Assembly: GCF_024713945.1 (NCBI RefSeq)
Contig: NC_134677.1
Span: 3,537,001-3,601,000 of the forward strand
Source: Dermatophagoides farinae
Taxonomy: Eukaryota > Arthropoda > Arachnida > Sarcoptiformes > Pyroglyphidae
DNA: 64,000 nucleotides
Direction: 5' to 3'
In this document: positions 7,017 through 15,000 of the stretch, in pieces
Numbering within the stretch: position 1 is the first letter of the stretch
How the letters are laid out: each line of letters opens with the position of its first letter
Position numbers and translations under genes: made by a program
Notes under the pieces: model-generated
The model's input: only the letters and a program-made list of their open reading frames with translations
What the model was told of the DNA's origin: nothing
Database searches by the model: none

Positions 7017-8140
7017 ATGCTATCTTTTATTTTAACAGCCGGATTCGTTTCTTTGACTTCTGTGATAATCGGTAAGAAAGTTTTTCACATTCCGAATATC
7101 TGATTGTTTTTGTTTTGTTTTTACATAATAAAGGAGTCCGCCTATACAATGTCTATTATTGTTGGGGTAATTACGAACAAATGCTAAAACGCTATGGAAG
7201 AAAATCGATTAAAAATTTGACCATAGTTATTACTGGTTGTAATACGGGAATCGGTAAAGAAACGGCCCGCGAATTGTATAGACATGGTGCTCGTGTTATT
7301 ATGGCCAACCGAAATCGATCACAAACCGAACAGGTGATACAGGAATTCCAGAGACTATATCCATTTGCTGATGGGCAATTGGTATACAAACATTTGGATC
7401 TTACCTCTATGGATTCGGTGAAACGCTTTTCACAAGATATCATTAGCAATGAGCCAAGATTAGACATTCTAATAAGCAATGCAGCCGTATTTGGTGCTCC
7501 AGTCGGCCTAACAGATGATCATTTTGAAACAAATATGCAAGTTAATCATCTGGCTCCAGCTTTGCTAACTCATCTCTTGTTACCAAAACTACAACAGCCA
7601 AGAATCGGCGATCATGCAATGAAAAAATCACCACCACCACCACCGCGAATCATTACGGTCACATCGACACTGACCAATCGTGGAACAATTCAACAAGAGT
7701 TTTTATCGAGAATTACTAATGAACAACAACTGAAGACCATAATGAACAAACGTGGACGTGAAATTTATGCATCAACTAAATTGGCAAACTTACATTTTAT
7801 GCGTTCATTATCAACACGTAAAAACTTGATCAAAAATGTAGAAATCTGTTTGGCTAGTCCGGGTTTCTGTTATACTCGTTTACATCGATACAGTAGCCGT
7901 TCTAGTCTCATTTGGATGAGTTTGTTTGCTCCGTTGTTTTTTATGATTGTCAAATCATCCAAACAAGGCGCACAAACTATAATTGGCTGTTCGATGATTC
8001 CTCATCTTCGTTCTGATGTACTATATCATCATTGTAAAGAAGATGAACTTTTCTTCCAAAAAGGACCACCATCGTTTGTTTCAAATTCACATCATTTGTT
8101 TGAAATTACAATGAAATCGATTGAACCATTTTCAGGATGA
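7017..8140 (+). CDS. Membrane-anchored short-chain dehydrogenase, retinol dehydrogenase 11-14-like
   Basis: Exon 1 (7017-7071) encodes a hydrophobic N-terminal anchor and is joined through a 62-bp intron to exon 2 (7134-8140); the product is 353 aa. The ATG at 7017 is the only ATG-started first exon that joins in phase. The NAD(P) loop TGCNTGIG is at 52-59, an LDL(T) acidic-turn segment follows, and the catalytic Tyr-x-x-x-Lys is YASTK at 230-234 with an upstream Ser in VTSTLT. The usual NNAG motif reads SNAA. The architecture (N-terminal membrane helix plus classical SDR fold) is that of retinol/retinal reductases and related DHRS proteins of the ER or lipid droplets. Substrate cannot be told from sequence. 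A short proline run (PPPPP) precedes the catalytic strand. Confidence 0.88.
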
Positions 8141-8325
8141 AAAATGCTGTCTCTTCTCTTTTGAATGGTCGTATTGAAAGCATTCATAATCAATGAAAAT
8201 GAAAGTGAATGTCAATTTTTCCCAAAAAAAGTCTCCGAAAAATATTTGATTTATTAAAAAGTAGAACCCTGACACCATCTATTATTTTCAGTAAACACTA
8301 TTTCAAAATTTAATCAAAATTTAAT

Positions 8326-8886
8326 TTATTGATGTCGATACGATTTTGGTTTCTGTATTGTGTACGACCTTTTCTGTTTTGAAATAAATTTATCGATTAT
8401 TTGAATAATAGATTGTGGAAGTATTTCTTGCTGTTGAGTATAATGCTCCCGTTGTTGTCGCTGATTAGATGTTTTTGGACGTTCTTGTTGACGTCGTATC
8501 CGTTGTTGACTTTCTCTTTTTTTGGAATCATCCGGTCGTATGTTCTTTTTTGTTTTATCCTCTTTTTTCAAGGTAGGGTCACAATAGATATGTTGAAAAT
8601 CCGATGGTGCAATCAATATTGTTGGAGTTTCGGAGGCAATCTTTCGAAGTTGAGCTGTTTTACTTTCGGTTGTGACGGGTGTTCCTTTAAAAATGTGTTC
8701 ATAATCTGACGGTGCGATCATAATCGTTGGTTGATCGGATGATACCTTTTTTGCTTTACTCACCTCTTCATTTATTTTTTGTGCTGTACGATTCGTATCT
8801 GGATCACCTTTGAAAATATGCTCATAATCCGAAGGTGCAATTAGCACTGTTGGTTGATCACTTTTAACAACTTTTACAGGCATCAT
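8326..8886 (-). CDS. Orphan protein with three copies of a PT-(V/I)-x-IAPSD-(Y/F)-x-HI motif
   Basis: A single-exon frame from the ATG pair at 8881-8886 encodes 186 aa. I start here because the upstream open frame has no ATG and reads like AT-rich UTR. Three near-identical motifs lie at about residues 9-29, 50-70 and 85-104. Each reads (S)(D/E)-x-P-T-(V/I)-(L/M)-I-A-P-S-D-(Y/F)-(E/Q)-H-I-(F/Y), about 35-41 residues apart, joined by Lys/Thr/Ser-rich linkers. The C-terminal half is highly basic and Gln/Arg-rich, ending in a Lys-Ser-Tyr-Arg-His-Gln tail. There is no signal peptide or recognised domain. The repeats look like tandem short linear binding motifs. The stop codon overlaps an AATAAA. 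I do not recognise the family; expression is not proven, but motif conservation argues for selection. Confidence 0.7.
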   Translation of the reverse strand: MMPVKVVKSDQPTVLIAPSDYEHIFKGDPDTNRTAQKINEEVSKAKKVSSDQPTIMIAPSDYEHIFKGTPVTTESKTAQLRKIASETPTILIAPSDFQHIYCDPTLKKEDKTKKNIRPDDSKKRESQQRIRRQQERPKTSNQRQQREHYTQQQEILPQSIIQIIDKFISKQKRSYTIQKPKSYRHQ

Positions 8887-9098
8887 AAATGTTAGAAAAA
8901 ATAATAATTCGAAATTATAAATAAAAGTTTTGGTAATTTTAATCAAATAAAAAACAAATTGCAATTCAATTAATTCATGAATAAATATTTATCAATTTAT
9001 TATTTATATCGAAAATCATCAACTAGGTTTAGGTTTTTAATTGAAAATTTGTACAAAAAAAGAATTCCATATTTTTTGGCACTTGCCCGGAACATGAC

Positions 9099-12000
9099 TT
9101 AAACATGATCGCTATCGTTTGCATGTCGAATCAATGGTCTGGGCTTTCGTTGTTGTTGCTGTAACATTTGGTATTGGATTTGTTGTTGGTTCTGGTACAA
9201 TTGTTGTTGCTGTTGTTGTTGAATATACATCTGAGTATCATAGGTTGCTTGTTGTTGTTGAGCCATCAATGATCGACGAGGTTGGGGTATGGGATTCAAT
9301 GCTGCACTAAAAGCAACACTTTTCGGATGATTCTTATCTGCTGCTGACATGTTTCGTAATGCTAGATCAAATTCAACTGATTTTCTACGCCCAGTGCTAC
9401 CGGTCGTATTCGAAGCGTTCGATATTGATGATGTCTGGGATGACATTACTAATGATCCGTTTCGATTCAATGGGCCGCCGCCGCCATTGACTGCCATACG
9501 ATTCGAATTAGCATTCATTACTGCTGATGTATAGTCTCGCAATAATTGTGATATTTGTAATGCCTAAAAGTTTTATTAAAATGAATTGAATCGTTGTGGA
9601 CATTGAAAATACAAACCTGGTGAGTAATAAACATGTATTTAATTGTTTTGGTTATTGCTGTGGCCACATTGGCCACAATCATTAATGAATTCGATGTTGC
9701 AGTATAATCGACCAAATTCCGATATTCACAACTGCAGAGAACATTCTATTTTGGAAAAATAATTGGTTATTAATAATTATTGGTATAATGTATTGTATTA
9801 AATATGCTTACCCTAGTTCTAGGCTGCAGTAGATGCATACCACTTTGATCAATGGCAAGCCATAGTGTTTTTGGCCAAGAACTAGTATATGTCTGTAACA
9901 CTTCAAATACGGTGGCTCGATGTAATGGCCACGATTGAATAAGATTAAAGAATGCTGCTTTGGCTTGTTGTTGATCCATTCCACTTTGAATTTGATGTTG
10001 TGTTCGCACATCTTTTACCAATATGCGGCAGGCTAGTCGTTCTGGCAATGTTTTACCGATTAATTGGTTATAGGACATATCATCCAAACCACCACTGTTT
10101 GCTTCGATCATCGTTGATAATGAATTGTTGACCATCATGTTGTTTGAATGGCTATCACCAAATTCTAATTGAGCTCGAATAGCAACTAATAGTATGGCTT
10201 CTTGATCGGTCAATGGAAAACGATCGTTGCGAACATTGTGCAATGTTTGATGATATAATAATTCTCGTTCAACAGGATCATTAAAATCGACATAATTATC
10301 GATTTGTAGATGTTTCTGTAAAAAAAATTGATGGTTAAATTTACAATGAGACACAATGATCAATTCTATTAAGTACATACCTTGAAGATAAAATAATGAA
10401 TCGGTTCTTGAGTTCCCCCATTACGAACGACACCGGCAGCAGCAGTGGAACCATTTTGAACTTGACCCAGATGTTCATCATGCCATCGTTCCCAAAATGC
10501 AATGGCGTCTCCCACCTTATCTTCTGGTTGTAATGCTTGTTCAGCACCGTTTTGTCCCAGCACTTGATACAATGCATAACCAGGTGCATGTGTTCGTAGT
10601 TCGATTTTTAGCTGAATTTGTTCCAAAACTTCGGCAATGACAGCACAAGCATCAAATTCAACGGCTTGAAAATGACCATCAAGAAAATGTACACGGGCAT
10701 ACACACGGCGACATTGAATTGTGGCAGCAATTTCAGGACGTGAAGGCGCCAATCGACGACCACGTGTTTCCAATGTTCCTTGAAGATTTCGTAATGCGAA
10801 TTGAGCATATTGACCTTCACGTGTAATTTGATCCAAGGCACAGCGACGCAGATGAGCATGCAAATAGGCCAATACTCGACGATCGGATGGCTGTGTGAGC
10901 GAACAAGCGAGTGCCAACAATTGCCAATGTTTAATATTTACACGAGAATTCGGTATTGGATGATCGGTGGTCTGACGGATCAACTGTAGAAAAAATTCAT
11001 TACGTAGTATATCAGCATCACCACCAAGACACTTTTCCAGAATTGCTTGTGCTTGTCGGATTTGATTTTGTTCAGATTGTGTAGCACGCATACACCATTC
11101 AACTTCATTCGATGATGATGATCCATTTGTCGTAGTAGAAGAATTATCCGATTGGCTTGCATCATTTCGTAAGCCTGAATAAGAAAGTATTTGTTCGAAC
11201 ATTGTAACAGCAGCTGCTTCTAGATCTGGATCTGAAATGACTAATAAGCTCGAGACAAGTGGTTCTTTAATATATGCCCAGAATGGTCTGGGATAATTCC
11301 GTAATATTTCATCATGACTATAGTCATCGTCATCCAAATTAATTTGATTGTTTTTTGAATTTGATTTACTACTGCGACCTAGTCGCCGTAAAGTAGTACG
11401 CCACTTAGTTTGATGTTCTGCTGCTGGTTTTCGCATGATGTTTGCCGTGACTAGTGCCCGTCGGCAATTGATCACTTCGGTATGCAATCGGAGGCGATCT
11501 TCGAGTGTCATTTTAAGTAGTCGACGGGGTCGTTGATTAGCAACTGGTGTGCTCAATACATCAACCATAGCATTGGCCATGCCGAAAGTAAATCCGGCTG
11601 CATGTTGTGGTGAATAGGCGGCAACTAATGATGCAATCTCTTCTTTTTGTAATGTTTCAAATGTTAAACATTTATTTGAACCATCGGGTGTTTCCTTGAA
11701 CATTTTCAGCGTAAGTAATGATTCTGTCGGATATATGGTCAATGTTTCAATATCTGAATATCGATAGGTGGCAAGGACACGTTTATCTGCCGCTGCAACT
11801 ACTAATATGGCGGCAGAATGAACGCCCAATAATAGTGGCATATTACCGAATATAGCCAATACACCTTTATATTGAACGGGAAATAATGCAGCACCGTATA
11901 ATGGATATTGCATAACCAATGAAAGATACCAGACTTTAGCTACTAATGAACTCTTTCCATAGCCATGTAGACGATGAGCATCAGCAATTTTCACAGCCCA

Positions 12001-15000
12001 TTCCATTGAGCTATGGCCAGCTGCACGACGTACCCGAGCACTTATATAGTTTTCAACATCTTCATAGCTTCGAATACGACCTTCAACAAAATCTCCCATC
12101 AACACTTGAGCTTGAAGACCGGCCAATTGTAGAGCAATACGTTCGCTGACAGGAAATTCATCCAATCGGACGACGCTATGTACAGCTTGTGCATACAATA
12201 AGCTTACTTCGACTGTATCGCGTGGAATTTCATTCGCATTACGGAATAAACGTTTTTTAAATACGAATCGACAATTAGTAGCAATCGAATCAACTGATGG
12301 TGAATTCGGTATGGTGGTCGATTGATGATGATTTGACGAAGCAGAAGAGGATGATGAAGTTGATTTGCTTTCAGAACGGGCCCGTAATTCCCATAAAGTC
12401 AATACATCAGCCACATAATCATGGCTTCGTAATACACGTTCACCTTCGGGCGCCACTTCGAATAATGCCCAACCATCAATATTACGAAGACCAAGTTTGG
12501 CGGCCAATGAAAGAACAGCATCAGAAGCTGTATCGGCCGGATGGAGATCAAGGGCTTTGGTTCGGCCATCCAACAAATGAAATCGACATACCAAGGACCG
12601 AAGTGCGGTAACGGCTTTTACTTCTGCAATCGATGGTGGAAATCGTCGAGCAGACAATCGGCCAACATGTAAATTGTCCAAACAGAATTGTGCATAACAA
12701 GCTATTGATGTATTATTTGCTCGCAGATGCCGCCGTAGATAAGTCAACAAATAGCGAGATAATTGTTTATTAGGCATGAATGCAGCCGTGGCCAAGGCAA
12801 GCAATGACCAACATCTAATCGTTTGTTCTTTAGATGGATTATCATTCGATTGTCGTACTAATTGAATGAATATTTCATCACGCAATTCTTCACGTTCAAT
12901 ACCATGGCCAATCATTGATTGAATAAAGCGAATTTCTGTCTCAAGTTTTTTCTCACCTGCTAGATATTTATTCAATTCTTTGAATATTGAACAGGCTAGA
13001 TTTATATTTTGCGGAATGGCTAGATGTACGTGTGCAGTTGGTATGGTTGAACTTGATGTCCATGTGATCATTTCGATTGGTGTGAGAAAAAGTTCGGCAC
13101 TATTTACATCAAGACCTTTCCGTTTGTTTCGATTCAATGTTCTTACGATCTGACCACTAGATCCAGATAATGCACCCGAATAATCATCACGTTTATGGCG
13201 ATTCAAATGTTTGCTTGCATATTCAGATAATTCAAAATCTTTTTCCCATTCTGTTGGTGGTTCGCCATTCAATGATGATACAGCACCATTGGTGGTCATT
13301 GGCATTTGTGATCGTTGTTGTTGATGGACAATCTGTTTTGTGATGAATTTAGAATTTGTAATTGCTTGTATTTGTTGCGGTGTTAATTGATGTAGCTGTT
13401 GATTAGGTTGGGCTGCAATCGTGGTCGTTGTCACCGGAATCATTGTCATTTGATTTTGACCATTATAGATGGGCTGCTGCTGTTGGCTCAATACTTGGGG
13501 TTGAATCAACTTTTTCTGTTGTTGTTGTGTATATATTTGCTGATGATGTACCTGTGCAATGGCTGCAGCTGTGGCCATTGGAACCATTGTGGGTGCTGGT
13601 ACTGCCGTTGCAATTGTTAATGGAACATGAACCTGTTGCTGTTGATGGAATGTAGCAGAGCCAGGAAGTGGAGATGAATTTTCAAAATCCGATGTACTAT
13701 TAGATGTAGCAGCACCATCACTCATAACACTCATAACATCATCGCGTTGAGATGTATTCGTTCCGGTATGTTCGGATGATGATATCGATCCACGATTATC
13801 AAGAATTGAACTCGATGCAGTAGATGATCGATCATCATTTGATTGAGAGATACCACCATCAACACCGTTACTATGAACAATTTGATCATTATTAGCTACC
13901 ATCATCAATGTATCCGATGTTGATGTGGCAGGAGAATCGGATACGGCAGAATCTACCGAACAAATTGATGGGGATGGTTGATGATGGTGCATCTTTCCTT
14001 GCTGTTGATCATCGGATTGTTGTTGCTGTGTTTCATCGACGATTAATATGGCTTTCAATTTTTCAGCCAACGATGACTGGTGCTGCTGTTGTTGTTGTTG
14101 ATGATGATGATATGCTGACATATTTGGTTTTGGTTTCGGTTTTGGGGGATTCATTTTTTGTATTTTATCCAATGAATCAACAGCCAATTCCGTTTTTTGT
14201 ATCAACTGATCAAACTGGTCACTAATTGATCGATTCGGTTGATTACCAATTTTCTGACCAATTAATGGCATTGGTGGTGGTGGTGGCAATGATGACATTG
14301 ATTCTAAAGCCGAATCCTCATCCACCGATGATTCTTTCAATGATTTCAAATGCAATTCATCATCAGTATGATTATCCACTTGATTATTGTTGGTATCACA
14401 CGTATTATTTACTTGTTCCGTTTCTTCGACTAAAATCTCTTCATAATTGCTATTATTATTATTATTATTATTATTACGACAATATAATCGTTCGACGTCG
14501 GCCCGTAGTTGACGCTCTAATTCATCCAGTTCGTCTGGTGTAGATGATCTACTATGTATTTCAGGTCAGAATGAAAATGAAATTAAATCGAAATGAAAAT
14601 ATAATAAAAATAAAGAGAAATGTTATCAAGTTTCATTTTTTGTTTTGAAACTCGTTTTCATGTGTCTGTGTGTGTGTCTTACCGTTTTCCTAAGAAATGT
14701 CCGTTAATCTGTTCAACTGCCATTCGATCTTGTTCCTGTTGTTGATCCGTTCCATCGTTTTCTTCAGACGATTGTTGTCTTTCCATCCGTTCTCGTTGAA
14801 GTTTTTCCGCGGCTTCAATTGCTCTCATATGACATAATGCACGGGCAACCTCACGGGCAAACATTCCACGTACAAATGCCTGTATGGTGATCGCTGCACG
14901 ACGTTGTCTTTGATATAGTAAACGTGTTCTCATCGCTCGAAATGCTCGTTGAATTATAATTGCACTTGAACGTTGACAACGATAAAGTCGCATACATATT

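Follow-up and report, generated by a model that had tools for sequence, protein, structure and literature searches.

A 186-residue open reading frame (ORF) on the minus strand of a 64,000-nucleotide stretch of Dermatophagoides farinae DNA, here called the window, is one member of a motif-defined gene family. The motif that defines the family occurs at a minimum of seven loci of the same genome, the window and six others, in 21 copies that range from one to eight per locus. An earlier note, made from the letters of the window, had called the protein an orphan, which these six further loci show to be wrong. Judging from the sequences, we consider it somewhat better than an even chance that the family members are basic, probably disordered scaffolds carrying one to eight copies of a 14-residue docking peptide for one common partner.

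Three motif copies in a short reading frame

The features of the window that bear on the 186-residue protein are as follows.

8326-8886, minus strand: ORF of 186 aa with no visible intron; ATG at 8886, TAA at 8326-8328
8812-8853, minus strand: core of motif copy 1, PTVLIAPSDYEHIF
8689-8730, minus strand: core of motif copy 2, PTIMIAPSDYEHIF
8584-8625, minus strand: core of motif copy 3, PTILIAPSDFQHIY
8371-8421, minus strand: C-terminal stretch LPQSIIQIIDKFISKQK, partly a low-confidence predicted helix, with weak likeness to the C-terminus of the C9 member
8250-8255, minus strand: AATAAA some 70 bases past the stop, which by consensus match only may be a poly(A) signal

Each motif copy follows the pattern S-[DE]-x-PT-x-x-IAPSD-[YF]-[EQ]-HI-[FY], with PT at residues 12, 53 and 88. 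The earlier note had described a protein of 186 residues with three copies of a motif, invariant PT, IAPSD and HI positions and an otherwise low-complexity, basic make-up, and the observation is borne out: the minus-strand frame is open from ATG to TAA, PT, IAPSD and HI are identical in 3/3 copies, and the protein has a pI of 9.7 with 19% K+R and 11% Q. The third copy has F in place of Y at motif position 10, a replacement found in this copy only (1/21 across the family). Comparison of the 14-codon cores, summed over the three pairs of window copies, counts 21.5 synonymous and 11.5 non-synonymous changes (pS 0.71, pN 0.12); the copies are thus not a recent DNA repeat.

The longest ATG-started ORF in a simulation of 20 dinucleotide-Markov windows, each of 64 kb, had 159 aa; none reached 186 aa. 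Upstream of the ATG, the frame stays open for 34 more codons with no second ATG. This stretch (8887-8988, minus strand) reads hydrophobic and could come from an unseen exon or arise by chance where the DNA is AT-rich; a longer, TTG-started version of the ORF is a mechanical extension only. Two ATTAAA hexamers lie near the stop, at 8309-8314 and 8320-8325.

AlphaFold2, run on the single window sequence, returned no confident fold (mean pLDDT 41.7, 0 residues above 70), the best-modelled part being a helix at residues 158-171 with a block pLDDT of 62. Such low confidence fits a disordered scaffold, a single-sequence model of one member being weak evidence on the matter. A C-terminal helix common to the window and C9 proteins was considered and set aside, as the likeness (41% over 17 aa, E 2.1) is not significant.

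The neighbourhood holds other coding sequence. A short-chain dehydrogenase ORF (PF00106) at 7115-8140 on the plus strand is convergent with the 186-residue ORF. Further upstream, on the same strand as the latter, lies a MyTH4-FERM ORF (10369-14379, minus strand) in which a FERM central domain goes with two stretches of MyTH4 and two of RA-like type; in this it resembles a MyTH4-FERM myosin tail. The Q-rich ORF at 9099-9542 is a candidate for its last exon.

The motif recurs at seven loci

The genome comprises 62.4 Mb in 22 contigs. In one of its group-2 allergen exons 107/108 residues agree with PDB Der f 2, and this exon scores lower with Der p 2, which makes D. farinae the most likely host; a second group-2-like exon is more distant. 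The genome was searched with protein queries, and motif copies were counted by regular expression over the stretches of the seven loci. That number of loci is a lower bound, the protein search having scored the best candidates only.

C1:2443092-2444429: 8 motif copies
Window locus: 3 motif copies
C8:751923-752967: 3 motif copies, split over two frames
C9:1769921-1770886: 3 motif copies
C2:8153657-8154511: 2 motif copies
C3:1121418-1122749: 1 motif copy, plus two degenerate-looking ones judged by eye
C6:3092310-3093164: 1 motif copy

Queried with the 20-residue motif, the genome gave 19 matches, 19/19 of them inside these loci, and 2 of the 21 known copies were missed. Weak genome matches outside the seven loci numbered 35; the core motif was present in 0 of the 15 that were read (C9:2149460 included), and in the remaining 20 the matched query positions do not overlap any motif copy.

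The individual members show several further features. The two degenerate-looking copies of the C3 member (L014:1419-2750) read RSDDATILLPVVEEF and IPSDTPSLLVEIMV, and the same protein ends in CCSCQII, which we take to resemble a lipidated CaaX tail. Upstream of the C8 locus lies an ORF for a CAF1-family ribonuclease (PF04857; L011:1-921). At C8 (L011:2344-2520) and C6 (L015:1800-1880), the open frame shifts at a CAA repeat, and at C8 intact motif copies lie on either side of the change. A short intron or other splicing, a broken gene, or a wrong length in the assembly could underlie these shifts. Counted from the first Met, the proteins of five loci out of seven have a pI of 9.3-9.7; the value is 6.8 for C2, and 9.2 and 5.7 for the first and second ORFs of C8. 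The predicted N-termini of C2 and C6 are provisional, because their open frames begin with 126 and 129 Met-free residues, respectively.

These N-terminal regions bear on whether the proteins might be multi-copy secreted peptide precursors, with repeats freed by cleavage at basic residues. A conserved, repeated peptide with K or R close by has the look of such a precursor, and an unseen exon could supply a signal peptide, given the hydrophobic, ATG-less stretches in the upstream frame of the window and before the first ATG of C2 (FILSLFLI). Against this, there is no in-frame ATG ahead of those stretches, dibasic flanks are not constant, and the 9-residue hydropathy counted from the first Met exceeds 0.71 in no member except the out-of-frame second C8 ORF. 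We regard secretion and processing of this kind as very unlikely.

A protein motif is kept while linkers diverge

Aligned, the 21 copies give a 14-residue core of PT-x-Φ-IAP-x-D-Y-x-HI-[FY]. T, I, A, P, D, H and I, seven columns in all, do not vary in any of the 21; the initial P is retained in 20/21, as is the Y. Upstream of the core, S stands at position -3 in 15/21 copies and [DE] at -2 in 12/21, so the S-[DE]-x extension is a tendency only.

The codons of the invariant columns vary synonymously. Over the seven invariant columns of the 21 copies, pS is 0.594 and pN 0.000; pN/pS is 0.289 over the whole core and 0.641 in its four free columns. What is conserved is the protein motif and not the DNA. 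The linkers, in which K, R and Q abound, do not align. Compared by fixed offset rather than by alignment, they gave pN/pS ratios of 1.17 and 1.10, values near 1 that are expected of unrelated sequence as well as of relaxed constraint; since the positions are not truly aligned, the ratio shows just an absence of visible constraint. With motifs masked, blastp among the eight ORFs of the family found no significant similarity (best E 1.6). The proposal that the motif is conserved while the linkers diverge therefore holds well beyond the window, in 21 copies at seven loci with seven residues unchanged despite codon variation.

Short repeats common to several proteins, joined by Q-rich linkers, could also be homotypic assembly segments that glue family members together in the manner of amyloid-type signalling. 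The core itself speaks against this, as it holds two prolines (in 20/21 and 21/21 copies) together with an invariant D and H, residues that are unusual in stacked beta-strands. We find assembly of this type very unlikely.

Searches for described relatives

We looked for the family in collections of protein domains, structures and phage sequences. All Pfam matches of the window protein and the seven paralogue ORFs fell below the cut-offs, and a PDB search at E up to 10, run with the window protein and with the motif profile, found no match. PHROGs and NCBIfam were compared with two ORFs of the eight. The best PHROGs match (phrog_27846, of unknown function, E 9.2e-4) had no stretch passing alone, the best NCBIfam match (NF001987, E 0.0023) reached 17.2 of 295 bits, and neither was accepted. 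In viral and bacterial contigs, 10 and 6 stretches, respectively, fit the peptide pattern, and tblastn confirmed none of them; phage records searched to a limit of E 1 with the eight-copy paralogue as sole query yielded nothing.

The best of the Pfam matches came from PBECR3 (PF18812), a phage-type nuclease domain. Its likeness to the family is a partial profile match of the C1 paralogue at C1:2443092-2444429 (L010:2093-3430), which covers profile positions 8-54 of 115 over 46 residues (27.7 bits, E 2.8e-6) and leaves the remainder of the domain unmatched. Ten single-copy segments, eight from the C1 paralogue and one each from C6 and the window, were scanned against the same profile, and 2/10 matched (E 0.027 and 0.030). 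A nuclease identity was rejected: the score lies below the 30-bit Pfam cut-off, two segments of ten match, and PBECR3 is not listed for the other seven ORFs, that of the window included.

A literature search for the motif strings found no paper. Dermatophagoides combined with short linear motifs likewise gave none, and in a broader search none among the matches listed names Dermatophagoides. The statement in the earlier note that no family with this motif was known stands within Pfam (eight ORFs), the PDB, and PHROGs and NCBIfam (two ORFs), and the motif-defined gene family is described nowhere within the collections and literature searched.

Comparison with known short motifs

Sixteen short-motif patterns were tested anywhere in 28-residue stretches. 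The core of the LIR pattern, [DEST][WFY]xx[ILV], was checked against PMC7615515, and the FIR consensus, [DEST][DEST][FWYILV]xx[ILV], was added from it. All were picked after the motif was known, and chance may account for the fit of a loose one. No pattern tried is accepted as the identity of the motif, because none covers both of its halves, PT-x-Φ-IAP and DY-x-HI-[FY].

Several patterns were rejected. PAM2, SIM, PIP-box, RVxF, LxVP, TRAF2 and LxxLL each matched 0/21 copies, HP1 PxVx[LMIV] matched 5/21, and the HCF-1 binding motif [DE]-H-x-Y matched 7/21 and 0/3 in the window. Two loose patterns matched widely. The YxxΦ sorting signal, with Tyr in first place, was found in 20/21 copies, the third window copy having Phe, and in 31% of shuffles. 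The T-x-x-[ILV] sequence of FHA ligands, in which the T is phosphorylated, was found in 21/21 copies and in 35% of shuffles.

Peptides of the LIR/AIM and FIR types, the ligands of the Atg8 family and FIP200, share with the mite motif an acidic residue followed by aromatic-x-x-aliphatic. As multivalent autophagy adaptors, the mite proteins would bind Atg8/GABARAP or the FIP200 claw, the aromatic residue filling pocket 1 and the isoleucine pocket 2, which would be a special case of docking. The LIR core (aromatic at 0, aliphatic at +3) is present in 21/21 copies, compared with 11% of shuffled 28-mers and 2/55 linker 28-mers, and both patterns permit the F of the third window copy. The FIR pattern, in the form given in PMC7615515, occurs in 19/21 28-mers, 18/21 in register, compared with 9% of shuffles. 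However, the stricter xLIR pattern fits 15/21 copies, and the mite unit spans 14 residues rather than about 6, with PT-x-Φ-IAP and H also kept. The LIR and FIR consensus of PMC7615515 does not demand the invariant PT, IAP and H. On sequence grounds, we judge it unlikely that the motif is a LIR or FIR peptide.

The start of the motif (PTVLIA, PTIMIA and PTILIA in the window) recalls the PxIxIT peptides that dock on calcineurin. Here the likeness is P-x-hydrophobic-x-hydrophobic, and the relaxed form, P-x-[IVLF]-x-[IVLF], fits 3/3 window copies and 11/21 in the family. The strict form, P-x-I-x-[IV], fits 2/3 and 6/21; at position 3, I stands in 6/21 copies and A in 10/21, and PxIxIT with its polar last residue occurs in 0/21. 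The mite motif instead continues with Ala-Pro in 21/21 copies and has a conserved downstream half that PxIxIT leaves unexplained. Calcineurin docking would thus seem to have next to no claim on the motif.

A proposed docking model

The reading that we favour is that of repeated docking peptides, inferred from a peptide that stays fixed, linkers that are free to vary, a copy number that differs between loci and the absence of a common domain. The earlier note had proposed such peptides for the window protein, and the proposal has gained from the wider family, in which seven residues stay invariant, codons vary and linkers diverge at seven loci. Each motif would bind, as an extended peptide, along the surface of one common partner, with avidity raised by the presence of several copies. 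The basic linkers, which might contact nucleic acid or membranes, would tether the assembly inside the cell. An intracellular location is presumed here, and the hydrophobic, ATG-less in-frame stretches upstream of the window ORF and in C2 count against it. The motif is also longer and stricter than most docking peptides, and a small folded unit, or one that self-assembles, is a possible alternative.

Of the binding sites known, a groove with two pockets, aromatic and aliphatic, as in Atg8 or FIP200, would suit the motif best. It would read D-[YF]-x-H-I, and would have to be extended to take in PT-x-Φ-IAP as well. More tentatively, and with a doubtful rather than an even chance of being right, the sequences suggest a mite hub whose groove reads the whole of PT-x-Φ-IAP-x-DY-x-HI-[FY], the ligand copies being carried by at least seven fast-evolving, disordered scaffolds; such a docking code would be a new one.

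Disordered proteins that carry repeated docking peptides are a familiar type; this motif is long and strict and has no accepted match in the collections searched. As this case shows, a seeming orphan can be one of several dispersed paralogues, recognisable by their motif alone. If the model is true, a hub-protein docking code would exist in house dust mites and perhaps more widely among astigmatic mites. The family would be an undescribed one in a major allergen source, and a peptide of about 17 residues would offer a simple handle for finding its partner.
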